NCBI RefSeq assembly: GCF_003073045.1
Contig: NC_037603.1
Location: 19,040,192 to 19,104,191, forward strand
From: Pomacea canaliculata
Taxonomy: Eukaryota; Mollusca; Gastropoda; Architaenioglossa; Ampullariidae
Length of the DNA: 64,000 nucleotides
Direction: 5' to 3'
The notes under the pieces are model-generated. The model searched no databases and was not told the DNA's origin. It worked only from the letters and a program-made list of their open reading frames with translations. Made by a program: the position numbers and the translations under genes. Position 1 is the stretch's first letter, and every line of letters starts with the position of its first letter. Below, one piece after another: positions 25,083-64,000 of the stretch.

Positions 25083-25087
25083 GCAGA
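25083..25087. repeat. left target-site duplication GCAGA
   Basis: Five bases directly before the TGTCGC terminus, identical to 28,907-28,911 directly after the GCGACA terminus. Confidence 0.93.
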
Positions 25088-26194
25088 TGTCGCGTGTCGG
25101 CGATTTTTCTGCTGTCCGTGTTGTGCTTTCCGTACTGTGATGGCCTGTCGCTGGGTGTGTACGTACGGATGGGGAGAATCAAGGGACGGTTTACCGGGTC
25201 CTTGTGTAACCCTATCCGTCTCGCGAGCCCAAGAGCCCTGACTCGCGGCGTCACAGGTATCTTTTTCTTTCGGGATGGGACAGCTACCCCCCCCCCCTTT
25301 CTCTTTGTCTGTTTCTTTGCTTTTCGCGCGCGTTGGGGTCCTTGGCGCGTTTTTCTGTCTTTTCTGGAGAGTCTTCATCCAGCAACGGACGGCGCCGGAC
25401 GTGGGGGACGGTGGAGGACCGTGGCCCTAGCGGCCGGCGCTGGTCTCTCACCATCACAAGCCGATTTGGGCTTTTTTGTATATTTTCTACGTGTTTCTTC
25501 ATATTCTTCATGTTGGATTTGCTCTCCGTCCATGTCGTCGTTTCTGCACGTTGCCTTTCGTGCTAATGTCCGCCATTGTGTCGACCCTGCGCCTTCCTCG
25601 CCTCGTCGGCGCGTGAGCAGGACCCTGCTGCGCGAGTGTGCGGCCTGGCCATCGAGGGAATACCTAGGGTGGAGGCCGGCGAGCAGGGACTCACGTGACC
25701 AAGGTCTACCCGGACGGGAGAACCGAGGGGGGGGACAGCTGGTCCAGAGGGAGAGAGGGGGGGGGTCACCGCTGTAGCGGCACGCGGGCCAGAGAGAGGC
25801 GGGCTGCCGCCAGCGAACACCTTGAGCGGACATTTGACTTGCCACCCAGCAGTGCGTGCGGGTGGTTTGTCTTCCCTTGTTGTTTTGTTTTTTTTTTTTT
25901 TCCTTTTCTTCGCCTACTGTAACATGCCTGTGCACAGGGCAACTCTTTTATTGTGAATTATTTTTGATGCTTGCCTCCTATTAGTGTTATTTTATGTTTA
26001 GTTAATAAACCTGTCTGTTTTGTAAACTTTGTCTTTGTCATCGTTGTTGTGTGGTCTGCGCTCAGCCTGTGGTTCGAATGGTATGTCAGCAAGCCGTCTC
26101 CGGCCGAGCGGAGGGGGTTGCGCGTTCGTCTCCGGCTGTGCGAGCGGATCTTCGGGCGTGCATCTTCCGGCGGCCAGGGGGTGGTAACGCGACA
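25088..26194 (+). repeat. 5' long terminal repeat
   Basis: 1,107 bp, starting TGTCGCGTGTCGG and ending GTAACGCGACA. It aligns along its whole length with 27,808-28,906. A poly(A) signal AATAAA at 26,004-26,009 is followed by T/GT-rich sequence, as expected near the R/U5 region. Compared with the right copy, almost all differences in the first kilobase are homopolymer-length changes, while the last 85 or so bases differ by several substitutions. Open frames within the LTR are not recognisable genes. Confidence 0.95.
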
Positions 26195-27805: not shown

Positions 27806-27807
27806 TA

Positions 27808-28906
27808 TGTCGCGTGTCGGCGATTTTTCTGCTGTCCGTGTTGTGCTTTCCGTACTGTGATGGCCTGTCGCTGGGTGTGTACGTACGGATGGGGAGAATC
27901 AAGGGACGGTTTACCGGTCCTTGTGTAACCCTATCCGTCTCGCGAGCCCAAGAGCCCTGACTCGCGGCGTCACAGGTATCTTTTTCTTTCGGGATGGGAC
28001 AGCTACCCCCCCCTTTCTCTTTGTCTGTTTCTTTGCTTTTCGCGCGCGTTGGGGTCCTTGGCGCGTTTTTTCTGTCTTTCTGAGAGTCTTCATCCAGCAA
28101 CGGACGGCGCCGGACGTGGGGACGGTGGAGGACCGTGGCCCTAGCGGCCGGCGCTGGTCTCTCACCATCACAAGCCGATTTGGGCTTTTTTGTATATTTT
28201 CTACGTGTTTCTTCATATTCTTCATGTTGGATTGCTCTCCGTCCATGTCGTCGTTTCTGCACGTTGCCTTTCGTGCTAATGTCCGCCATTGTGTCGACCC
28301 TGCGCCTTCCTCGCCTCGTCGGCGCGTGAGCAGGACCCTGCTGCGCGAGTGTGCGGCCTGGCCATCGAGGGAATACCTAGGTGGAGGCCGGCGAGCAGGG
28401 ACTCACGTGACCAAGGTCTACCCGACGGGAGAACCGAGGGGGGGACAGCTGGTCCAGAGGGAGAGAGGGGGGGGGGGGTCACCGCTGTAGCGCACGCGGC
28501 CAGAGAGAGGGGCGGGCTGCCGCCAGCGAACACCTTGAGCGGACATTTGACTTGCCACCCAGCAGTGCGTGCGGGTGGTTTGTCTTCCCTTGTTGTTTTG
28601 TTTTGTTTTTTTTCCTTTTCTTCGCCTACTGTAACATGCCTGTGCACAGGGCAACTCTTTTATTGTGAATTATTTTTGATGCTTGCCTCCTATTAGTGTT
28701 ATTTTATGTTTAGTTAATAAACCTGTCTGTTTTGTAAACTTTGTCTTTGTCATCGTTGTTGTGTGGTCTGCGCTCAGCCTGTGGTTCGAATGGTATGTCA
28801 GCAAGCCGTCTCCGGCCGAGCGGAGGAGGCTGCGCGTTCGTCTCCGGCTGTGCGAGCGGACCCTCGGGCGCGCATCTTCCGGCGGCGAGGGGGCGGTAAC
28901 GCGACA
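27808..28906 (+). repeat. 3' long terminal repeat
   Basis: 1,099 bp with the same termini as the left LTR and a poly(A) signal AATAAA at 28,716-28,721. The homopolymer runs differ in length from the left copy: for example 8 versus 11 C near 28,006, and 12 versus 9 G near 28,467. Confidence 0.95.
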
Positions 28907-48907: not shown

Positions 48908-49439
48908 GTAAGTAGAAGACAGTGGTGTTGACGGCTAGTCGTGGTAGGTAGAAGACAGAGCGTGCTGCGTTTATCAGGGTATGTAAAAGCAGCGGGTGTT
49001 GAGGGTTCGTGATTTGTATCTTGACTTAATTTTATTTCCGTATTTTTATTGGAAACTTTCTTGCTTGTATGAATGTAAGTGGTTGAGTTAGTGGTGTTGT
49101 AAAGATCAACAAAACATTCCATTGCGCCAACGGATCCGTTAGTCCCATCTATGTGTATCCTTTGTCCCTTCACAATCAGGCTTTGTGGGGTGTGAAGGTG
49201 GGAAGGCAACAAAGAAAACCTGAGTGGACAAGCTTGCCACTGCTACTGTGTGGAAGGAAGAAATGTTACATGTATGTAATTGTATATGCAAGTGGAAAAT
49301 AAACACCCTATTGATGTCTGCCATCACTATTAACAACAGTGCACGGCATGATAGATCACCTATCGAGTGAAAAAAGAGAATCGGGTTAGAGGTCAGGACG
49401 ACTAGCGTGGGCACGCCTTGTACTACAGACATCACCACC

Positions 49440-49536
49440 ATGGAAGCCAGCTACAAATCAAATTTCAGCAACACTACAGACACCACCACCATGAAAGCAA
49501 GCAACAAATCAAATGTCAGCAACGCCAATAGTGACG
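49440..49536 (+). other. gene 1 first coding exon with internal 51-bp duplication
   Basis: The exon and the bases before it contain two head-to-tail 51-bp units (about 49,422-49,472 and 49,473-49,523). Each has CACCACCATG, so the start codon itself is duplicated, and the second Met is residue 18. Both units encode a T-T-M-x-A-S-x-K-S-N-x-S-N pattern. The donor is GTAAGC (phase 1). Confidence 0.75.
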
Positions 49537-52500
49537 GTAAGCACGGCGATGTGTAAATTTCAGGCAGTATTCATCATCATCGTCGTCGTCGTCGTCGTCG
49601 TCGTCATCATCGCATCATATAGTTAAAGTTGTATGTTTCGTAGTTCATAGATCATTCTACTCACTAGAGGACACGATGATGACACGAAGAACAAAAATGA
49701 TGCTGACGGTAACGATAAGGGGAGAATAAGGACGATGACGATGATGTTGATGACGATAATGATAACCACGACTATGATGATGATGAGGATCTCATTTTTT
49801 TCTGACGATTTTAGTGTACAGCAAGATCGACAACTGGAACAGAGGCAGTGCCAGAAGTCTGCAGGAAAGTGTGGAGTTGTCGTCATTAGGTTCTCAGCAC
49901 AGGTGAGTCCAGTTTATAATTACATTGTAATGAGGTATGATCATGATCGAACAATAAACAACACAAACAAGGATGCATATCGCTGGCTCATCCAACATGT
50001 TTGTGATTGTTGTTACCGGTAGTTTCACGCCTTTATATGTCCTTTATCCAATCTTTGATCCATCCTCTCCCCATCCAAGCTTTTCAGGGAATAGCCACGT
50101 GACTAGTTCCCCAGCCTCAGAGTCCAGAACCGCACCTTGCGGGTCAGAGGTCAGGACCCCCTACCCTCTAAGCTAACTCAACTATCGAATGGGCAAAACG
50201 AATAAAATAAAAGAGCGGTCTTTAAGACCACACCTCAAAAACTGACACTCATCAAACTATCTTTTGTTTGTTTGTTTGTTGTTAACAGGAGAGATAATCC
50301 TGTAACCTTTGACACTTGGTCGTCAGCGAACGACTACAGCCAGTCTGCAAGTAAAAGACGAGTTTGTTGCAAACAGAAGTCGACGGTCGTGCTGGTGATG
50401 TTGATATTGATAATCGTCGGTGCTATTTCAGGAGGCATTGCCTACAATGAGTTAAAGAGTGAGTGAGATACCTTTAATATTTTAAACATTTTTATGTATA
50501 CACTCGATATTACAAATTGTAATCTGTGTTTGTCTTCCTGTGCTTAATCACAAGTCGTTTTCAAAATTACAAGGAAGGGGGTGGGTCAGATTAAAACTTC
50601 TTGAACTCTTTGACTTTCTGCGTAGCTAAAACGTGTTTACCACTTTTTTTTACCCATTTCTTTCTGCTTTGCTTTAATAAAAATTGTTTAGATTACCACT
50701 CTTTTACCCACTTTGTAATGTTTTTTAATATTACGAAATATTTAAATTACAAAGTTTAGAATTAAAAAGCGAGGACTACTTGTCTCGTTGCAGATCGTTC
50801 TACGTCTACAGCTCCAGGTTAGTGAAGTCGAATAAGGATCAGAAAGACTTTGATTGTTAGTCAGGTAACTAAAAAAAATACTGAACATAGAAAAAATTCT
50901 TTAGAAGCAGAGAGCGGCTGAAGGAAAAGACTGGACTACATTTTAGAGAACATACCGTTCTCTAGATACAGTGGATCACTTACAGTTTGTTGCACCACCA
51001 ATACCTTTACCTATCTGACCAAAGGTTGTTATGGCGAAATACCAGAAGCAAAACAAAAATGAAATATACTAAAAACCTGCATCTCTAAAACTTTTTGGTA
51101 AGCGTTTACTACATTGTCTTCATTGTTTATCTCCTTAGAGACGAAAAAATTCAACAATAACAATAATGAACGTGGATAATTCCGTAATTCACAGAAATAA
51201 GTGACGCGATTGTTTGAAACTGTTGTAGCCCTCGACTAGAGGTCATTATTAATCTCTTATCTGTTTATATTTACTTCTTTAAGTTTTGTAGTACAGCATA
51301 TTGTTTACATTACGATGTTCAGCGTTCACGTAATCACCACTTGCGGTTTATTGCAGGTGAAGGACAAAAATACTGGGTCAGCAGAGGTAAGAAAATGTGT
51401 AACTGTAAACGTTTTTTGCCATACCTAAAACAGTAGAAATATGAACATCTTGAGGTAGACACACACACATACACACTAGCAAGCTCTCTAAATCGGAGGA
51501 GAAAAACGCCGCTTGAAGACAGGGCAATGACTTAAACGATTTCTTCAGAAAAAAGGAATGATCTGTTCTTTGTCGGTTCCACTCGAAGGCTTCCCCTAAA
51601 GGTCACTTATCTTTGTCTGTATTTATTTCGAGTGTTTACTTCCAAAAAATGCTAAAATCAAAGCAGAAGACCGCTTACACTAACGACGCATTTAAAGCTG
51701 GACGCCATGGTCACGTGATCCAACTGGTGCCAATGCTGGTGCAGTAACGTACATTTTTGTTGGAAGATCAAGATGTGAATACACACCTTTTCTTCACTCA
51801 CACACACACACACAACGGAAGTAGAGGAAACTGGAGTATTCGGACAAAACCATGACAGACGGTGACAGGCGCTGCAACCACCGCCATTTTATGTAATCTG
51901 CAATAATAATCAGGAACATGGTATTATTCCCTGAATTAGGCTTCCTTTTGTCTTTAAACTACGTATAATTATCAGCTTTTTTCTGTCTTTCCGTCTTTTC
52001 TTTTCTTTCGTTCATTGGTTACACTTATATTCTATCCTAACGGCATTTTTCCTAAGGTGGAGCTTTCATGTTACTCAAATGTTTATTATTGTTACTAGTT
52101 ACTCTTGTACATTAGGGGTGGGTTTTAATTCTGCTTTACTTTGTGTGTATAACAAATAACCACCACCTCCCTTGTCTTTATTTGTTTTGCAGGTCGCGTC
52201 ACCACGTTGGTGAATGACTCCTTCCTTCCTGCAATGGCCAACAGCTCTTCCACCGAATTCAAGGAATTCAACAAGAAACTGTGTTACAGTGTGAGTTAAA
52301 GCTAGGTAAAGCATTAGTAGACAAGAATGAAAATACTGACAAAATTAAATAAGCTCAGTATGTCAAGAGGCAGGCAAACAAAATGAAAATACCAAAATAG
52401 ACAAAGGGAGATAATTTGTGAAACTAGGAGTGTAGGATCGACAGAGGGAGGAAAGAGGAGGAGAGAGAAAGAGAAAAAGGACGATAGAAAGAAAGAAGAA

Positions 52501-53628
52501 TGGGGGACGGAGACTGTAAAAAGAGATGAAGGAAGTGTATTGTGTGATGAAAACAACACATGTGAGTAAAGTATGATAGTGTCTTGTGACTGTCTTCTCA
52601 ACCTCATCTGACCCACTGATTACTAGTCATGACAAATTTCTACACAATCTTCGGTGACAGGTTTACAAAATTTTAGCTGGGAACGACAGTGTGGTCTTCC
52701 GCGGCTGTGCCCTACTTGATCTCAGGTAAGGATTCAAAAACAACAGAAACTTTATATTCTTTTTGTTTATTTGTTCAACATTGTCAGACTGATAAAATCT
52801 TTCAACTGAAGTAACTGTCAATTATGATAGTTTACAAGACAGACATGATTTGATTTTCCTTTCCTTCTCTACTTGTACTCATGCTATAGCCAGTACTGTT
52901 AACCTAACCTCAAGAGCAATCAGCCACTGATTTTACTTGTTGCTTACATGAAAATACTGTTTTCATTCCTTTAACTATCCTAAAGTAGGATACTTCATTT
53001 GTTTGGATGCACAGTGTAACTGTTTATGTACATCTTGCCGGTTCTGTCTTTAACACTGGAACTATCCCATAATTTGGTAGACACATGTTTGACCTTTGTA
53101 TACTGTCCTAATTGTTTACCTCAGTTATGTACTTTAATTAGTTACCTCCCTTTATTATATGACAATAATGTAAATGTAAAATACAAATGGTTGCAGAAAT
53201 TATTGGTTACCTCCCTTCAGTTAAGGGTGTAGCCTACACAGTTCATTCCAAGTCAGTTATCACAATATTAATTTTCCCTTGTATACAAAAAACTACTGGT
53301 GCCAAGATGGCTGGAGGGATATAAACTCTTTGACCATCATGAAAACCACTCACCATCAACAATTCTGTTTTGTGTGTTTTTGTTTGGTACAGAGAAGGCA
53401 GCATCATCGCAAATTTCACTCTGGACCTCCAGACCACTTTCGACACTTCTAAAGCAAGCGGTGAGTGGCTCAGGAGCCACTTGCAGCAGTCTGGGGTCCA
53501 GGAGGGAGAGTCTGTTAAATGGTTAAATCTGCGAATTCTGAAATCTTCAATTGTGGTTACACCCTTAATCTCAGGTGAGGTTTTACACTAGACAAACAGA
53601 TAAAACTATGCTCTGTAATTAGCCAAAA

Positions 53629-53708
<80 letters not shown>

Positions 53709-54888
53709 AGATTTTAGGACTTCAGATCAATATAATGAAAAAGATGGCTGTGGACAGGCTGCATATCTATCGCTGCCATACACCTACCCACTGTACTGTG
53801 ACGAATATCAGGCATGCAATGGAACGGTGATCGAGTATTTAAAATGTCCTCAAGGCCAAGAATTTTCTTACAACCCAGCGACCACAAACAGCTCTGTGTG
53901 TGGTTTGCGATCAAATTCTACGTACTGTGGTGGACAAATGATAAAAGATATCACCACAACGACTGAGGCCCGGATGACAGGTACAGTGACAGTGAACAGG
54001 ACGGCAAACGCCACGACAATGGATGTTATGACAACAGAAGCGATGATTGTAAGCAAAACGACTGCGACTGGAGCTACAGACGTGTCTACGCAGAATGTGA
54101 CGACAGCTGCAATGATAACGAACACTGTAAGGACTGGAACCACAGACCCGTCTATGCAGAATGCGACGACAGCTGCGGTTATTGTTACTACAGCTGCAGA
54201 GGTTGTAAACAGGACGGCGGTGACCGGAACAACAGATGTGTCTACACAGAATGCAACGACAGCTGCCACGATGATGAACAGTTCGACAGTGACTGGAACC
54301 GCAGACACGTCTACACAGCATGTGACCACAGCTGCGGTGATTGTGAACGGTACAACTGTGACTGGAACGATAGCTGTGACCTCACAGAGTGTTACTGCAA
54401 CTGAAATAAAGGAGAACGTAACGACAGTGGTTGGAACGACAGCTGCGACTACACAGAACGTTACGACAGCTGGAATGGCAATGAACAGTACGACAATGGC
54501 TGGAACGACAGCTGCGACGACACAAAACGTCACGACAGCTGGAATGGCAATGAACAGTACAGCAATGGTTGGAACGACAGCTGCGACGACACAAAACGTC
54601 ACGACAGCTGGAATGGCAATGAACAGTACAGCAATGGCTGGAACGACAGCTGCGACGACACAAAACGTCACGACAGCTGGAATGGCAATGAACAGTACAA
54701 TGGCTGGAACGACAGCTGTGACGACACAAAACGTCACGACAGCTGGAATGGAAATGAACAGTACAGCAATGGCTGGAACGACAGCTGTGACGACACAAAA
54801 CGTCACGACAGCTGGAATGGCAATGAACAGTACAGCAATGGGTGGAACGACAGCTGTGACGACAAAAGCACCTGTGATACCGTTTTGA
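49440..54888 (+). CDS. type II transmembrane SEA/CBM14 mucin (gene 1)
   Basis: Nine coding exons join without frame conflict to 1,932 nt, or 643 codons plus stop: 49440-49536, 49815-49902, 50289-50458, 50794-50817, 51357-51386, 52193-52290, 52661-52725, 53393-53574, 53711-54888. All introns are GT..AG. Predicted layout: cytoplasmic tail 1-93, rich in Ser, Asn and Thr; a basic, two-cysteine stop-transfer motif (KRRVCCKQK, 84-92); one membrane helix at about 94-114; a short linker; a SEA domain at about 139-251 with the cleavage-type motif GSII at 193-196; a six-cysteine CBM14/peritrophin-A-like domain (C265, C281, C287, C297, C315, C324); and a Thr/Ala mucin domain, 328-643. There is no N-terminal signal peptide, so the C-terminus should be outside (type II). 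It is likely a cell-surface mucin whose mucin and carbohydrate-binding part can be released at the SEA site. The start is the ATG in ACCACCATGG; the frame is open to 49,371 upstream, so a more 5' start is possible. Confidence 0.8.
49577..49616. repeat. (CGT)n/(CAT)n microsatellite in gene 1 intron 1
   Basis: Runs of CATCATCAT and CGT triplets. Related GAT-rich sequence follows at about 49,734-49,790, just before the acceptor of exon 2. Confidence 0.85.
50289..50458 (+). other. gene 1 transmembrane exon
   Basis: Phase 2 in, phase 1 out. It encodes the end of the cytoplasmic tail, the basic and cysteine-bearing segment KRRVCCKQK, and the helix from about STVVLVML to AISGGIAY. The exon ends at a GTGAGT donor. 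The corresponding exon in gene 2 (62,247-62,473) has the same phases and the same position of the helix at its 3' end. Confidence 0.85.
52193..53574 (+). other. gene 1 SEA domain (three exons)
   Basis: Exons 52193-52290 (98 nt), 52661-52725 (65 nt) and 53393-53574 (182 nt) encode about 114 residues directly after the membrane helix and linker. The third exon opens with R-E-G-S-I-I-A-N-F, which lines up with the G-SVVV autoproteolysis motif of SEA domains: Gly193 then Ser194. The order is what is known for SEA: initial strand and helix, then the cleavage loop, then the second helix and strand (SSIVVTPL). N-glycosylation sequons NDS, NSS and NFT are present. Confidence 0.75.
53629..53706. repeat. 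(ATT)26 microsatellite abutting the last acceptor of gene 1
   Basis: Twenty-six perfect ATT triplets end four bases before exon 9 begins (sequence ...ATTATTACAG). The array replaces the usual polypyrimidine tract of this intron. Confidence 0.95.
53750..53929 (+). other. gene 1 CBM14/peritrophin-A-like domain
   Basis: Residues 265-324 carry six cysteines spaced C-15-C-5-C-9-C-17-C-8-C, with aromatic residues near the second to fourth cysteines (PLYCDEYQAC) and the PxGxxF motif after the fourth cysteine (CPQGQEF). This is the pattern of chitin-binding peritrophin-A (CBM14, ChtBD2) modules, which bind chitin or related glycans in extracellular matrices. The fourth spacing is slightly longer than common. 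A divergent member that has lost chitin binding is possible. Confidence 0.65.
53960..54885 (+). other. gene 1 Thr-rich mucin domain
   Basis: Over 300 residues made mainly of Thr, Ala, Val, Asn, Met and Ser. The residues form about 13 consecutive repeats of around 23 residues, each starting TTA and ending near TQNV. Most units hold two N-glycosylation sequons (N-S-T and N-V-T) and many potential O-glycosylation Thr residues, as in mucin PTS domains. The first seven units are diverged; units 8-13 are nearly identical. Confidence 0.8.
54463..54864 (+). repeat. 69-bp tandem repeat block in gene 1 (six units)
   Basis: Six 69-bp units encode TTAGMAMNST...TTQNV peptides. The fourth unit lacks one codon and the last is cut after 20 residues. 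Units are nearly identical at the DNA level. The phase is preserved throughout, so the repeat expands or contracts without shifting the frame. Confidence 0.95.
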
Positions 54889-55083
54889 AAAGGTACAACA
54901 GCGATCAGAACCACAGATGCGTCTGAACAGAATACGACGACAGCTGCAGCGATTGTAAACGGCACAATAACATCAAAAACCGCCAATGCATCTACACAGA
55001 ACGTTACGACGGTTGCAGCGATGTGGAACAGTACTGCAGGGACTGCAACCTCCAGTCTACACAGAACAGTTGAGAGAAGGTAA
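54889..55083 (+). pseudogene. in-frame continuation of mucin repeats after the stop codon
   Basis: After the TGA at 54,886-54,888 the same frame stays open for 64 codons to a TAA at 55,081. These codons continue the mucin character, with GTTAIRTTDAS, a Thr/Ala run, NGTITSK, then NASTQNV. This looks like the former C-terminus, cut off by a nonsense change within a repeat unit. Alternatives are stop readthrough, an allelic stop or a consensus error. Confidence 0.6.
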
Positions 55084-56844
55084 CTCATCATCAAACAGTT
55101 CCAGAGTTATCTGCCGATCGTACCCAACTTTGGTGTTTATTTTGACACAATGGGTGCTGGGTATCTGCTTTATCACACTGCCTTCTATTATTATCGGAGA
55201 CTGTCCTTAACCAAGGTCCAAACACCGATACATCGGGGTACAACTATATAGCTGACTACAGAAGTGACTCGTCTTTCCCTTGCTGTGCTTTGATGTTCTC
55301 AATGCATAACATAAATGTGTTTAAAGTGTATGTCACCGATTGAAAGTTCCTGGAAACATATGACCGACAATCTTGGAAAGTAATTGCCTATGTGTGATAT
55401 GATATTATTTAACGATATGTATGTATGTGGGTTGATGTGTTTGGCGATGATCAAGTCAAAGGCAGCACAACCACCTTTACCTGTGAATCACGTGTTCAGT
55501 CAACGATAAGGCAGCTGTCAGCCAATGTGAAGACTATATTCTAAGTGCAGTGACATCAGCTCGTGTGTTTGTTGACATGTCACTCACATTGTGTACTCAA
55601 ATGGTGATAATCTCCAGTCCCCGGTATGCAATAAATTGCGGATGTATTTCAGTCAATACAGTCGGCAAGCAGTATTCGTGGGTTTCACTTTGACGATTTT
55701 GATTATTCACGAGTTTATCTTCAATAATTAAATAATTAAATAATTTTTCTCCCAGTTTTGTAGTCTAATGTGGTAGATTGTACATGTAAAGAAAACTAAA
55801 AAATACAGTAAGACATAAAATATATTTATTACTAATGTATTATTTACTTAATAAATTTATGCTTGTATGCGTTTGAATATGGTCGAGAGTATTAATCGTT
55901 AGGGTTTTTTTTTTTTGAATTGTCGGAGCCTAGAGTTATTACGAATGTTCCCATTCATAGGGGTCGTAGGCCATCGAATACTGAGGGCTGAGGTAGTTAA
56001 TTATCTTTTAATATTTAAATTAAATAAAAATAATAATTGGAGAGAAAATAACCCCTTTTTATCACGACTTTGCTAATTTTGCATGTGAGAGTGTTTATCT
56101 TTAAATGCGATTCACTGAAGGTCGTCACGCTCGGTAGGTTTATGTTCTTAAGATCAGCTACCTGGAGTTGTAAAATACGAACAATACGATACTGCAAATA
56201 TTATGTAGTGTTTTGAAACACGTAAACGTTTTAAAAACTATTTATATTATCTTGTTAACAAGTTATAGTAACAAGAAAATGCTCTCGTATCTTGGAGAGC
56301 AGTTTGGTCTCCTCGGTACTAGCTACTCTCTACAAGCGGCATAATACTGCACTTCAGCTAATCTTAAACGTTTTATTTCAGATGATCAGTGCCAACTGTT
56401 TTCAGTTCTCTAAACATTTTTATTTTCTGTCCTTTTACCCTCTTATATATTTTTTCTCCACCACTGGACTTTGTTAAATAAATATAAATATACACATACA
56501 CCGTTGTTACAATGATTTACTGTCATTTACAAAAGAATGTATGCAGGCTTTAACAAGATCATGTTATGAAAAATGATGTAACACCCGGATACACTGCGAC
56601 ACTGTACTGTCAGAGTTGTTGCCCCTGAGTCATTCAAGCATGACGTTAGATGTAGAGCACTGTGCACTCTGTTTACACTTCCTTCACTTTCTGTTGCCTC
56701 GCTCTGACCATCACTTCCCTGTCTGTCCGACATACACATGAAACCTTTGCTGGTCCACAGTCCGAGCTGCCTCATTGACCACACCACGCAGGACCAGACG
56801 ACAAAGGCGAGGGAACGAAGAAACGAAGGGAGGAGGAAACGTAG
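55084..56844. other. gene 1 3' region and spacer
   Basis: AT-rich. Contains the putative poly(A) signal and, at 55,858-55,902, a 45-bp segment similar to 59,533-59,577 in gene 2 intron 1. An open frame to 55,210 in another register, with a hydrophobic end, was not accepted as coding. Confidence 0.4.
55630..55635 (+). terminator. candidate poly(A) signal of gene 1
   Basis: AATAAA about 740 bases after the gene 1 stop and 550 bases after the end of the repeat continuation. GT-containing sequence follows. Earlier weak signals may also exist, and this one is chosen only as the first perfect hexamer noticed. Confidence 0.35.
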
Positions 56845-58301: not shown

Positions 58302-61130
58302 ATGGCCCACCCCAGCGCAACACCCGTCGACGACTCGGGCCCAACGGTGAGTCAACATTATTAGACTTGAGCTTTTACATAACAAATTTACGAATTAATG
58401 ACGAAAGTCTGACGGAATACTAACGGTTTTCAGACGAAAAGATACTTTTGGGTAAGTGCTGATTCTTACCTCAATATTAGATAATTCTAACGGTGGGGGA
58501 TTTGTTTATATTTTTCTCTAGAAGACGATGACAAATGATACACTAGATCACTTTATTTTCTTTAAAACTTTTAAAAATACTTGATAATTCAAAAGACCTT
58601 ACAATGCTGAAATTTGTCCGGTTTCGTAGGCAGGAACGATTCTTTAGTAATAATAATAAAAATATATTGAACAGGGCACTCTCTTGCTCAGTAATCCATC
58701 TAAGGGAGCAACAGAGTCCCTCGTAACAGGTAAAGGGAATATGAATATTTAAACAGAGAGGAATGATTACAACATAAAATGTCTCAATATTTTTTGTTAT
58801 AAGAATGGTCTTCACTTTCAAAATAATATTTATCCAAAGCGCATTCTTTGTGTCTATGGCGGATGGCAGTAGTCACAGTTTATTTATATCTGTCGATTTA
58901 TCAGGAAGGGAGAGATTAGGGAGATATGAGACATGAATAAACACTCTGTTGATTAAAAAGGGAGTCCTTAAGAGGTATGTTTATTAATCAATGAGGAAAA
59001 TAAGAATTAGGAAAAGGTACATAAAAACAAATTTAGAAATTAGAAGAGAAACATTTTTACAAAGGACCTAGAGAATTTTCTGTTTTAAAAACGGAGAACT
59101 TACTTCAGTGGACTGACATCTACGATAATTTTGTTTGTTTACTGGAAAGACTTCAACTGTCTCGCCTGAATTGTAATATGAAATATCAATGAAAATTTGA
59201 AAGACTTTATTAATGTATATTTATAAATATATAAATCTAGATGTACATGTAAATATACATTTTTATATTTATTAACTTAATCTTCTTTTCGTGAAAAGGC
59301 ATAGTCAGTTGTAAATGAGAAAGGTAATGATACTGGTAATATTAAAACAGAGGCTATGAACTAAAAGCTGGTTGTTGTCGCTAAACAAACTTTTCCCATT
59401 CTTAACTGCTTGTTCTTTAATTATTATTATATTTATTTAAATGATATCCGTCCATTTAAGGAAACATCTTTTTAAAATGAATAAAAGACCGAATGATTTA
59501 AAATTAAAGCCTGTTCATTTCTTATATAAATATATGCTTGTGTGTGTCTAAATATGGTCGACAGTATTAATTGTTAAGAAGTTTATTTTGGAGGGTGACG
59601 GCCGAGAGCATGGAGTGGTGTCTGTGTGCCGAGACTCACTCTTACGAAGTGATCTGCTGTTAGTCTCGGCGAGCAGTAACAAAAAATGTGAATAAACCGG
59701 AAGCTATGTCGTCTAATGCCTCGTGGACAGAATACGAAGGACAACAACTATAACAAGAAACAACTATACAGACAAATATCAGACAACTATAGAAGGCATA
59801 AAGAAGAATCAGAGAACAAACAGTGAGGGTGAAGACTGTCGTTAATCTGTAAAAGAAAACAAGCAGGCGGACTCGTCAATTAATTACAATCACAACTATT
59901 GACAACTATGTTGATTGGTGTACGTTGAAATTAGGTTCTCTAAAGGACAGAATAGATGGACCGAGCCTAAGAATAATTTCTCCCTCCTACTTTCCCAAAA
60001 AGCGCTCCATTAGGTGATTCTTTTGACGATTGTATTTCGTCTCCGGCTTTCACGGTTGGGTGAAATCCATGTCAGCCATTCGATAGTTTTCTTCCTAGTT
60101 TAAGGAGGAGCAAGTGTTAGCAGGATCTAGGTATCGCGTGAGAAACATCATTTAGAAGAAACCTCTAGGGCAGACCTGGGCAAACGCCGGCCCGCGGGCC
60201 GGATCCGGCCCGCCTCCTGTCTCTGACCGGCCCGCCCGCTGGCCGCCCACCAGTAAATATACTATATATACAGTATTGGGTAAAACTGAGTTAACTATAT
60301 TAGTCCGGCCCTCTAGAACCATCCCAGTTTCTCGTCCGGCCCTCTAGAACCATTCCAGTTTCTCATCCGGCCCCTTGGGAAAATTAATTGCCCACTCCTG
60401 CTCTAGGGGGTACTTTCATTTCTTCTGATCCAATAATTTTCTCTCAGTAACACTGAACCTGACACTGATCACACCTGGATATACGTGTTGTTCACAAGTG
60501 AGGGTATCATACCTGAAAGAATTCCCTACTGCATCCGGCTGTATCGCTTTTCCTTCAAGAATACATAGTCGCCCAGTTTCTGGAAAAGATAGTAGCCAAT
60601 AGTCACACGCCTACACCTCAGTTGTTTCCGAACACATCATATCATTTTTCGGAAACTCATACGATCATCTCATTTCCAAAATTCCCGCTGGGACTAATCC
60701 TTTCCATACAGTATTGCAAAGGCAAGATCGTATATTTTTAGTTAATGATATTTGAAATCGTTGAAAGTTTGTACTGTGGAATTATTTTTATAAATTTATA
60801 CGTGCACTGAAAACCACAAACGGAATTAAGAAAAAAATATGTAGTTTGAATGTCAACAAGTCTACTTACCGTTCTTGTTTTGTTGTTGATATTTTATGGT
60901 ATTCGTATGTCCCTTGATAGTTTTTTTGTTTTTGTTGATATTGTTCTTGTTGATTTTTTTGTTTTTGATCTTCATGAGGAGAACGATCATCTTGGGATTT
61001 CTTGCTGTTCTTGTTGATATTTTTGATGTTGTGTTGTTGGTATATTTTTTTTGTTTATACTATTTTGTAACTTTTTACTTCTTGCTTCTTGTTTGATGAA
61101 GAAGAAGAAGAAGAAGAAGAAAGAAAGGAA

Positions 61131-61215
<85 letters not shown>

Positions 61216-61558
61216 GAAGGAAGGAAGAAAGAGAGAAAGAAAGAAAGAAGAAAGAAGAAGAAAAAGAAGAATATTCTTACTGCTATTTGCAACTAAGCGT
61301 CTGTGTATAAAGGCATGAAGGGAATATTACTATGAGAATATTGTTAATTTATTTATTGAAATAAAGGCTGTCTGTCTGCAGAGGATGCCTTGGTCGAGCG
61401 ACTATCACACACCGGCCCACATACCCATGGGAGGAAACCAGTCGCCTCCCATCATCTCTACCACAAGTACAAGCCTCTCTGGGTCCTCGTGTGACTATGG
61501 TAAGTTCGACCTTGTGACGGTGGTTGTGGTGGTGGTGGTGGTGGTGATGTGTGTGCAC

Positions 61559-61597
<39 letters not shown>

Positions 61598-63106
61598 AAG
61601 CTTGAAGTTTACTGATGCTTTCTGTGAAAGGGTCAGAAGAGGGCAGCTCATCAACGTCTGGGTCATGTTCACCCAATGTGACAGTCACAAGACAGGCATA
61701 TGTACATAAGACAGACGTCGTCGTAGTAGCTAACCAAGCATTTATTTGCAAACACAGACGGAAAACCTCTGATAAGCCTCGAAAAGAATGTGATACAACG
61801 ACTGACGGGGTGGAAAGCAGAGACACTGCAGAGATTGGTGATGCCCCTACTGAGCAAACTATAGGACCCACAGACGGGTACGTTTACCAGTTAATTATGA
61901 AAGATTTTTCCCGAGACACAAAGTTGCAGCGCGGCAGTACAACAAAATTTCCAGTGATGGCTGGGTAGAGAATGAAGAGTATGGATCACGAACAAGCTAC
62001 TGCCCCTCAGCTTTCTTTTGAAAATGTCTGATAGTCATACAATGTTGGGTGCTGTAAAGTGCACATTTCTCAAAACTCAGGTAAACTACAACCTTATAAT
62101 ACGATATAATAATATTTTTTTTTAAAAATCACAGTTCAGCAAAATTCAAATTCTGTCTACTTTCGATAGGTAATGACGACAGTGACCACTGACAGATTAA
62201 ACTGAACATTAATATAAGCCTGCACATGTTCACTGTGTTGTCGCAGAAGTGCCATTCAAGGTGACGAGATAAGAGAGGAAAATCAACAAACCCCAATTTA
62301 TGTGATCCAAACTCCTCCAAGGGAGATATTGCAACCGGACATAGAGATCGGCCATCACCAGCCTGCAATAAAAAATGGTGGATGTGGCAAACACAAGGCA
62401 TCAGTTGTGTTGGTGATCCTGGTACTGTGCATGGCAGCTGCCATTGCAGGCGTCATTGCCTCGCAGTTGAAAGGTGAGTGAAATCCGATTTTTCTTTCCC
62501 TCTCAGTTCTTAAATGCACGTGATTCCGATATTCTAGTTTCGTGTTTAACTTCTGTTAGGATGGCCTACGAAAACTACGCAGCCAAATAAAATAAACCAA
62601 AAGGGAGACAAGTCACCGTCAACTGCATTAATTTACATTTTGACTGTTGTGTCCAACTGTCCTTTATTTTTATTAAAAAATAAAAATCCTAAAGGCTCTT
62701 TAGATGTATTTAAGAAATTATAAATTTATTATTTTGAGAAACTACATCAGATCCAGTGCTCCGATATGAAACACAGGCACAATAGTCTGTCTCGGTTGTT
62801 TCCCTTCTCGAAGCCCGCAAGATCTGGAGCAAAAATATATGAACCCCATCCCCCCGCAAAAAAAAAATAAACAAACAACAACAAAAAAACCCCTGAACAT
62901 ACTAAGTGTACTAATTACCTAATAATAACTCAGTTTCAAATTTACTACCCATCAAAATATTTCATAGAATAATTTACAATTAGTAATTTACATGTGTGTA
63001 CCTAAGATATTAATTTCGACTTACTTGGTTATGGTTTTTGTAAAGCGTTTTCAGCCTACTGTAAATTGAGGAAATCGCGATTTTAATTGTGTGGTCGTCG
63101 TCGTCG

Positions 63107-63140
<34 letters not shown>

Positions 63141-63725
63141 AATCATCATCATCATCATCAGCAGCAGCAAAAAAATAAAATAAAATAAATAATAAATAAA
63201 TGCTTGTTGTTCATTGCAGATCTTGTAAAGACATACCGGACCACAGGTACGTTAATATTTGAAACTTTGAAATAAAGAGAAAGATTACATGTATCTTAAA
63301 AGCAATAAGTGTACTCGACATCGGCACAGAAGTGTTCAATTTCCGGGTACATCACAGTTGTATCTGTGACTAAAAACATTTCTCTCTTTAACAACCAGGT
63401 TGTGGAGGGAGACGCCTTTCGCAACCTACTTTCTCGACACAGTAAACCACTTGTAATTCCCTGCAGCCCAATTGGCTATTTATAAGACGTTTCTTAAATT
63501 ATTTATCATTATATTGAGGTTTTAATTTGTTCTTTATTTTATTGTTCTTTTTTTTTTTATTTAATGATAATTAAAAATGCATTTCCTTGTTGGTAGGTCT
63601 GGTTTCAGTGTCTGTGGATGACTCTTTTCATCCTTCGATGGCTGACAAGAATTCTTCAGAATTCAACGCCTTTAGCCAAAAGTTTTGCGATAGTGTAAGT
63701 TACTTCAGTCACAGAGAAACAGACA

Positions 63726-63813
<88 letters not shown>

Positions 63814-64000
63814 ACCTCATGGGATACTAATCACGAGAAAGAGACAAAGGGTTATTAAAATTAATTATCAAACGACAAAGTTCTTTTATTCACGCACAAC
63901 CAGTGTCTTGCAAATCTTTTAAATATCCTCAGTCGCAAAATCTAGGCAAATCAAAGACGAGAGTTTCATTCTTTCCTTTCAGGTTGGTACAATGTTAGCT
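58302..64000 (+). CDS. SEA-domain type II membrane mucin paralogue (gene 2, partial)
   Basis: Seven coding exons join in frame to 260 codons before the window ends: 58302-58346, 61382-61499, 61631-61877, 62247-62473, 63220-63246, 63597-63694 and 63983-64000 (cut by the edge). All complete introns are GT..AG. The cytoplasmic part (about 187 residues) is longer than in gene 1 and rich in Ser, Thr and Pro. The membrane helix is at about 188-208 (ASVVLVILVLC onward). A linker and the start of a SEA domain follow. The 98-nt SEA exon matches the 98-nt SEA exon of gene 1 in length, phases and about 16 of 33 residues, including DSF.P.MA, SEF and a C..S end. The next exon begins VGTMLA against VYKILA. 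Whether gene 2 also carries CBM14 and mucin repeats lies beyond the edge. The start ATG has a CACCATGG context. Confidence 0.72.
59628..59670. other. 9-bp perfect inverted repeat in gene 2 intron 1
   Basis: GCCGAGACT at 59,628-59,636 and AGTCTCGGC at 59,662-59,670 can form a 9-bp stem with a 25-base loop. It lies in a short GC-richer island (about 59,595-59,680) in an AT-rich intron. No known RNA family is recognised. Confidence 0.5.
60163..60170. repeat. left 8-bp target duplication CTCTAGGG
   Basis: Directly abuts the CAG terminus and is identical to 60,401-60,408. Confidence 0.9.
60171..60400. mobile_element. hAT-type non-autonomous MITE, 230 bp
   Basis: The element starts CAGACCTGGGCAA and ends TTGCCCACTCCTG, which are imperfect inverted termini (10 of 13 positions) of the CAG..TGGGCAA kind seen in hAT elements. 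It is flanked by a perfect 8-bp duplication CTCTAGGG (60,163-60,170 and 60,401-60,408), the length made by hAT transposases. The GC-rich palindromic GGCCCGCGGGCC near the left end is also typical of some hAT MITEs. Inside, a segment of about 31 bp (CCGGCCCTCTAGAACCAT...) is repeated in tandem. It lies in intron 1 of gene 2 and has no coding capacity. Confidence 0.9.
60401..60408. repeat. right 8-bp target duplication CTCTAGGG
   Basis: Directly follows the CTG terminus of the MITE and matches the left copy exactly. Confidence 0.9.
61097..61262. repeat. (GAA)n/(GAAA)n purine microsatellite
   Basis: A purine-only tract of GAA then GAAA units with a few GGAA interruptions, about 120 bases before the acceptor of gene 2 exon 2. 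Lysine-rich and serine/phenylalanine-rich frames over it are artefacts. Confidence 0.95.
61520..61598. repeat. (GGT)n and (GAT)n microsatellites
   Basis: A GTG-rich run followed by about 13 GAT triplets fills most of the 131-bp intron between gene 2 exons 2 and 3. Confidence 0.9.
63097..63168. repeat. (GTC)n/(ATC)n/(AGC)n microsatellite
   Basis: Successive CGT, CAT and CAG triplet runs about 50 bases before the acceptor of the gene 2 linker exon at 63,220. Confidence 0.9.
63724..63814. repeat. (GAAA)n microsatellite after the gene 2 SEA exon
   Basis: About 22 GAAA units starting some 30 bases after the GTAAGT donor at 63,695. The open frame running from the exon into Lys-Glu-Arg repeats is an unspliced read-through and not protein. 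Confidence 0.95.

Follow-up and report, generated by a model that had tools for sequence, protein, structure and literature searches.

A predicted type II membrane mucin with SEA and CBM14-like domains belongs to a gene family clustered on C14 of Pomacea canaliculata

How is a mucin held at the cell surface if its membrane anchor, SEA domain and repeats do not follow the order of MUC1-type membrane mucins? This question is raised by gene A, a gene in a window of 64,000 nucleotides from the golden apple snail Pomacea canaliculata (C14:19040192-19104191, NC_037603.1; positions of gene A are counted within the window), whose conceptual protein runs from a transmembrane (TM) helix through a SEA domain and a six-cysteine (six-Cys) CBM14-like domain into Thr-rich mucin repeats. 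We consider it likely that gene A belongs to a clustered family of snail type II membrane mucins, in which the SEA domain would cleave itself at a Gly-Ser bond and a chitin-binding-type outer part would be held non-covalently and could be shed. The exon frame, the homology of the SEA domain, the homology of the six-Cys domain to CBM_14, the repeat composition, the clustering and a ratio of nonsynonymous to synonymous substitution rates (dN/dS) below 1 between older paralogs are the sequence-based parts of this reading.

The nine exons of gene A (49440-54888, plus strand; Table 1) are joined by GT-AG junctions throughout and sum to an exact frame of 643 amino acids (aa), as had been proposed from the letters of the window alone (the sequence-only reading). 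Exons 3, 6, 7 and 8 and the six-Cys part of exon 9 are supported by the neighbouring paralog B, and exons 1, 2, 4 and 5 by the recent copy A' only. The order of anchor, SEA domain, CBM14-like domain and mucin repeats that the same reading had described stands in gene A and recurs in gene K of the same cluster. The start-codon region (window 49422-49523) is a 51-bp tandem duplication, which accounts for the two in-frame ATGs at residues 1 and 18, and a pure (ATT)26 array at 53629-53707 adjoins the acceptor of exon 9, replacing the usual pyrimidine tract.

No hydrophobic signal peptide is encoded in exon 1. The hydropathy profile has a single peak, with a 19-residue Kyte-Doolittle mean of 2.85 at residue 95, and the ten highest windows all begin at residues 87-97; the predicted TM helix (residues about 94-114, about 50383-50445) is the only strong hydrophobic segment, and no second one was detected by hydropathy in the 643-aa protein. 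This is the lone helix near the N-terminus, lacking a signal peptide, of the sequence-only reading. Its flanks are charge-asymmetric, with SASKRRVCCKQK, which contains the basic stretch KRRVCCKQK, before the helix and NELKNRS after it, and basic residues ahead of the helix were also seen by eye in B, K and an upstream mucin gene with immunoglobulin (Ig)-like domains (Ig-mucin). From hydropathy and flanking charge we infer that the gene A product is a type II protein. The MUC1-type plan, that is a signal peptide, a mucin part N-terminal to SEA and a C-terminal helix, is not what gene A encodes, as the helix at 94-114 is followed by SEA at 141-216 and the mucin part is C-terminal.

The SEA family (PF01390) matched a 142-aa piece of the protein (residues 121-262) with 29.0 bits, above the cut-off of 26.4, and the whole protein with 25.7 bits, 0.7 under the cut-off, so that the earlier SEA call is upheld on the domain piece. 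It was the sole Pfam match on the whole protein at E up to 10, and the same scan detected no trypsin-like protease domain. The joined SEA exons of paralog B scored 22.6 bits, under the cut-off. A Gly-Ser pair occupies the cleavage position in all ten C14 loci examined, reading GSIIA in A and A', GSIVT in B, B', C and C' and GSIIV in J, G1, G2 and K; the exact form GSxxV (x being V or I) is thus found in the last four. GSxxV is an established motif of SEA self-cleavage, as stated in an excerpt of PMC9478142. In matriptase, a type II protein, the SEA domain is cut at Gly149-Ser150 and the halves remain bound, according to the excerpt of PMC5567652. A search of PDB sequences with the SEA and six-Cys domains returned chance matches only (best E 0.9).

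CBM_14 (PF01607, cut-off 22.1 bits) was scanned against eleven pieces, nine six-Cys domains of the A-K family and two of the Ig-mucin, with no shuffled control for the weak scores. Ten of the eleven matched at E up to 10 and two exceeded the cut-off: K reached 29.0 bits with its second six-Cys domain and the Ig-mucin 30.3 bits with its last. The gene A domain, in which all six Cys are present, resembles the second domain of K in a two-sequence BLASTP comparison (E 1e-8, 34% over 50 aa), and an alignment of eight six-Cys domains (A, B, C and their copies) shows no variation at five of the Cys, the first Cys being present in all seven domains that extend to it. Because of this homology to a domain above the Pfam cut-off, together with the conserved Cys, we read the gene A domain as a diverged CBM14 by descent; it is the above-threshold scores of the cluster relatives that make the CBM14 identity convincing. 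The outer six-Cys part of the family is probably chitin-binding. In B, the first six-Cys domain matched Toxin_28 over 17 residues with 15.3 bits (cut-off 25), which was dismissed as a chance match of the Cys pattern.

The mucin part, too, agrees with the Thr-rich repeats noticed at first sight: Thr accounts for 31.6% of 313 aa, Thr plus Ser for 36.5% over 312 aa and Pro for 1%, and a 69-bp unit is repeated about 6.4 times with 95% matches. Each of six repeats (22-23 aa) holds both NVT and NST, and the 21 N-glycosylation sequons of this region compare with 7.9 +/- 2.2, maximum 16, in 2000 shuffles. Being Pro-poor and rich in N-sequons, the repeat is not a classical Pro-Thr-Ser domain and looks like a mixed N/O-glycan rod. 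A large mucin further upstream, with 33.9% Thr, 19.7% Ser, 9.9% Pro and 4 sequons in 837 aa, is Pro-rich and unlike the gene A repeats. The frame of gene A closes with a TGA at 54886, and a TAA follows at 55081. Both stops are common to A and its near-copy A', and therefore the TGA cannot be put down to an assembly error in one copy, an explanation that we rejected. Position 54888 is probably the true end of the coding sequence, and the open stretch behind it would be former coding sequence that is now 3' untranslated region; a polyadenylation-like AATAAA lies downstream at 55630.

Gene A is, by homology, one member of a clustered gene family and not a lone chimera. SEA exons together with a six-Cys domain were found at the ten C14 loci A, A', B, B', C, C', J, G1, G2 and K. 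The TM exon is present in seven of these, in A, A', B, B' and J by tblastn and in G2 and K by eye in open frames, and a second six-Cys domain in seven (B, B', C, C', J, G2 and K; in C and C' across frame breaks). No second six-Cys domain was found for A and A', nor within the stretch examined for G1. Inside the window, tblastn with the gene A exons matched paralog B in a SEA exon (63596-63697, E 2e-6) and in a TM exon (62353-62460, E 9e-6). The exons of B chain in frame, its SEA exons within the window agree with those of A in length and phase (98 nt, phase 1 to 0; 65 nt, phase 0 to 2), and a candidate start codon lies at 58302. The remainder of SEA in B lies past the window, where two six-Cys domains follow, separated by a short Thr-rich stretch. 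Gene C, which lies after B, keeps SEA and CBM14 and likewise has only a short stretch rich in Thr, together with a second six-Cys domain.

The genes A, B and C have a duplicated set, A', B' and C', about 130 kb upstream; over 7.8 kb, introns included, A and A' share 96.9% identity. At the level of the chromosomal sequence, a block duplication pairs C14:18955731-18985219 with 19085997-19117752, in pieces of 87-97% identity. The copies of the A-B-C block are either recent tandem duplicates or partly uncollapsed haplotypes. Downstream on C14 follow J, G1, G2 and K. In the last of these (C14 19254.5-19261.2 kb) the order is TM, SEA, CBM14 and long mucin, with the second CBM14 scored above in addition; a single open frame of 1075 aa, of which the first 200 and last 120 residues were inspected, holds the first six-Cys domain of K as well as a mucin-like stretch of about 950 aa. 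Incomplete copies occur at C14 19138 kb, at C5 31.435-31.436 Mb, where the SEA exon contains a stop, and at C7 24.54 Mb, and further matches outside the ten-locus count include C14 19229.6 and 19271.0 kb, C14 5.22-5.24 Mb and C9 18.70 Mb, among others.

Comparison of the older paralogs by the method of Nei and Gojobori (NG86) shows constraint. dN/dS was 0.39 for exon 8 between A and B (57 codons), and 0.39 for exon 8 (61 codons) and 0.36 for the six-Cys domain (71 codons) between B and C. The value of 0.12 for the six-Cys domain of A and B is unreliable since dS is saturated, and exon 6 of this pair yielded no dS. Recent copies show little constraint, with 0.63 for B and B' (556 codons), where the tail and TM part alone gave 1.94 on few changes.

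These features can be joined into a mechanism, in which topology, cleavage, glycosylation, chitin binding and tissue are what we infer. The internal helix after the basic stretch would act as a signal anchor, so that a tail of about 90 residues would stay in the cytosol while the C-terminal part would face outward. The SEA domain would fold and cut itself at Gly193-Ser194, so that one half with tail and TM helix and another with the CBM14-like domain and mucin would stay joined non-covalently, as in matriptase. The outer part, a knob of the six-Cys chitin/glycan-binding type followed by a rod of N- and O-glycosylated repeats, would coat the cell and would probably tether the epithelium to a chitinous or N-acetylglucosamine-rich layer, until a protease or mechanical stress released it.

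Several observations, set out here with the alternatives to which they speak, weigh against this reading. The cut-out six-Cys domain of gene A scores 11.7 bits for CBM_14 (E 0.29; cut-off 22.1) and the whole protein gave no CBM_14 match up to E 10; the term CBM14-like chosen in the sequence-only reading was right for this reason, and its link to CBM14 comes from relatives at 29.0 and 30.3 bits, the gene A domain itself staying below the cut-off. None of the first six-Cys domains in A, B, C, J and K reaches that cut-off (10.2 to 16.8 bits), a 66-aa piece of C' gave no match, the fourth Cys gap of gene A, 17 residues, is longer than the canonical 10-14, and in the first domain of J, which was outside the eight-domain alignment, a Trp replaces the third Cys. 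A PDB profile search with the eight family domains returned nothing up to E 10, hence no solved relative, and an AlphaFold model of the lone domain (80 aa, one sequence) was uninformative at a predicted local distance difference test score of 36.8. The low scores, the lack of a solved relative and the Cys missing from J would suit a six-Cys module that serves as a disulphide spacer or binds protein and no longer binds chitin, the family then being plain type II adhesion or barrier mucins; the two domains above the cut-off and the Cys conserved through the alignment speak against this alternative, which we regard as a possibility on the unlikely side. As regards cleavage, GSIIA departs from the strict GSxxV, so that self-cleavage is less certain in copy A; the cleavage site of matriptase reads GSVIA. 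A PF01390 profile search of the whole genome gave no match at E up to 0.001, and since it gave none in 14 controls either, it is no proof of absence; the miss is supposedly due to the SEA domain being split over three exons. A doubtful alternative is that the product is made membrane-bound, cut in SEA and incorporated into the chitin scaffold of shell or radula, not acting at the cell surface. It draws on Lotgi1|232880 of Lottia gigantea, a shell protein listed in the excerpt of PMC3374290 with several SEA domains and one peritrophin domain (residues 2140-2200), which, compared by description only, likewise unites SEA and a peritrophin-type chitin-binding domain in one mollusc protein; with over 2100 aa and several SEA domains, however, that protein differs from gene A.

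Other points concern the integrity of the genes. Frame breaks are visible in four of the ten loci, J, G1 and G2 not having been scanned end to end: A' is frameshifted by one base missing from exon 6, C shifts frame in the Thr-rich stretch and the second six-Cys domain, C' is broken in exon 8 and the second six-Cys domain, and K shows a frame slip in exon 7 (by eye). No breaks were seen in the exons examined of A, B and B'. The breaks may be partly assembly error and partly real decay. In addition, A' lacks intron 8 and reads through in frame at C14:18963443-18963460, where intron 8 of A, with an ATT microsatellite up to the acceptor, stands, and dN/dS between A and A' is 0.84 (286 codons, exon 6 of A' excluded), nearly neutral. 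Gene A might be a decaying duplicate, shortened by the loss of its second CBM14 and by a stop acquired within the mucin. The missing second six-Cys exon (no tblastn match at E up to 0.1 in about 19.0943-19.1015 Mb for A and 18.9639-18.9698 Mb for A') and the 64 in-frame mucin codons past the TGA, in which four amino acids differ between A and A', fit this idea, as do the frameshift of A' and the near-neutral dN/dS of the pair; the nine exons and splice sites of A are nevertheless intact over 643 aa and exon 8 is constrained against B, and we think decay unlikely. Searches by tblastn with the exons of A, B and K detected no TM exon for C and C', and none was seen in the 6.5 kb examined for G1. 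Were the exon chain wrong, the TM exon being part of another gene or a signal peptide being added by an undetected exon at the 5' end, the product would be secreted or type I. The very short exons 4 and 5 are seen in A and A' alone; against such an error, TM followed by SEA on phase-compatible exons recurs in B, the same order is found in B', J, G2, K and the Ig-mucin, and A, B, K and the Ig-mucin all have basic residues ahead of the helix, so that we think a wrong chain very improbable.

Table 1. Features of gene A and its neighbour B, in window coordinates
Feature	Position	Strand	Description
Exon 1 of gene A	49440..49536	+	start codon (CACCATGG context) and predicted cytoplasmic tail; same exon in A', 94%
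Exon 2 of gene A	49815..49902	+	predicted cytoplasmic tail; 100% in A'
Exon 3 of gene A	50289..50458	+	basic KRRVCCKQK and predicted TM helix; homologous TM exon in paralog B (tblastn E 9e-6)
Exon 4 of gene A	50794..50817	+	24-nt stalk exon, phase 1-1; in B a 27-nt exon, phase 1-1, at 63220-63246
Exon 5 of gene A	51357..51386	+	30-nt stalk exon, phase 1-1
Exon 6 of gene A	52193..52290	+	first SEA part, 98 nt, phase 1 to 0; B exon 63597-63694 of equal length and phase
Exon 7 of gene A	52661..52725	+	SEA, 65 nt, phase 0 to 2; B exon from 63983 likewise 65 nt
Exon 8 of gene A	53393..53574	+	remainder of SEA with candidate self-cleavage bond Gly193-Ser194 (53397-53402, LREGSIIANF)
Exon 9 of gene A	53711..54888	+	CBM14-like domain, mucin repeats and TGA stop in a single exon
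Six-Cys CBM14-like domain	53749..53928	+	Cys265-Cys324, spacing 15-5-9-17-8
Thr-rich mucin-type region	53950..54885	+	Pro-poor; 312 aa with 21 N-glycosylation sequons; 69-bp units spanning 54428-54864
Post-stop stretch	54889..55083	+	mucin frame still open, 64 mucin-like codons to TAA at 55081
Paralog B, runs beyond window	61382..64000	+	exons 61382-61499, 61631-61877, 62247-62473 (TM), 63220-63246, 63597-63694 (SEA), 63983 onward (SEA)

The Ig-mucin occupies a gene-like stretch upstream of the duplicated set (C14:18937197-18954948) with a TM exon, a SEA exon, Ig-like domains and CBM14 domains. A 35-aa piece of its SEA exon scored 17.6 bits, under the cut-off, its Ig-like domain scored 30.2 bits for Ig_3 (cut-off 30), and about 6 kb of Thr/Ser/Pro mucin are split among several open frames; we tentatively assign the TM, SEA, mucin, Ig and six-Cys parts to one gene. 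Across the genome there are at least 139 CBM_14 matches (E up to 0.001), with clusters on C1, C4, C9 and C13, the count being a lower bound since 150 of 256 first-look candidates were scored. Within the window, no Pfam family exceeded its cut-off in the six other open frames, and a GC-rich direct repeat of about 1.1 kb occupies 25087-26194 and 27807-28906 with 97.5% identity.

Among known systems, the type II SEA serine proteases (matriptase, enteropeptidase and the TMPRSS11 group) have an internal signal anchor followed by SEA and a Gly-Ser self-cleavage site, described for matriptase in the excerpt of PMC5567652, an arrangement that is also predicted for gene A; the outer end of gene A, however, carries a CBM14-like domain and mucin repeats and no protease domain. 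The central proposal of the sequence-only reading, that mucin takes the place of the protease at the outer end together with a chitin/glycan-type module, is supported, the same order being found in gene K; the clustered family, the Gly-Ser motif, the N-sequon-rich, Pro-poor repeat and the absence from A of the second CBM14 that most relatives have lay beyond its view. The SEA membrane mucins MUC1, MUC3, MUC12, MUC13, MUC16 and MUC17 resemble gene A in combining SEA with long Thr-rich repeats, and likely in forming a non-covalent heterodimer. Their plan begins with a signal peptide and places the mucin domain in the centre and SEA ahead of a C-terminal helix (excerpt of PMC9080433), whereas in gene A the predicted topology and the order are inverted, and the repeat region contains 1% Pro and is dense in N-sequons. 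The SEA family of Schistosoma japonicum is a further case of multi-copy SEA surface proteins in a lophotrochozoan, yet these have a signal sequence, some with a C-terminal helix, and are called 'akin to type-I' in the excerpt of PMC3886910. Gene A also shares CBM14-like and Thr-rich mucin parts with peritrophins and insect intestinal mucins, but is predicted to be membrane-anchored and carries SEA. In those secreted proteins CBM14 domains stand beside Thr-rich mucin-type regions. The literature searched, which omits most subscription journals, yielded no description of a TM-SEA-CBM14-mucin architecture.

The modules of gene A are familiar one by one; in combination, as a mucin hung from a predicted type II anchor via SEA and joined to chitin-binding-type modules, they invert the plan of the membrane mucins. 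Gastropods may, with about equal chances either way, hold a separate and tandemly expanded class of inverted membrane mucins, with a type II anchor, a self-cleaving SEA domain and CBM14 knobs flanking an N- and O-glycosylated rod, which would form a detachable link between epithelium and chitin and would have evolved independently of the MUC1 type. If the SEA domain cuts itself, snails and mammals would have arrived at the same breakable mucin tether from opposite topologies. With its recent duplications and broken copies, the cluster offers a ready case for studying the fast evolution of surface glycoproteins in this invasive snail.

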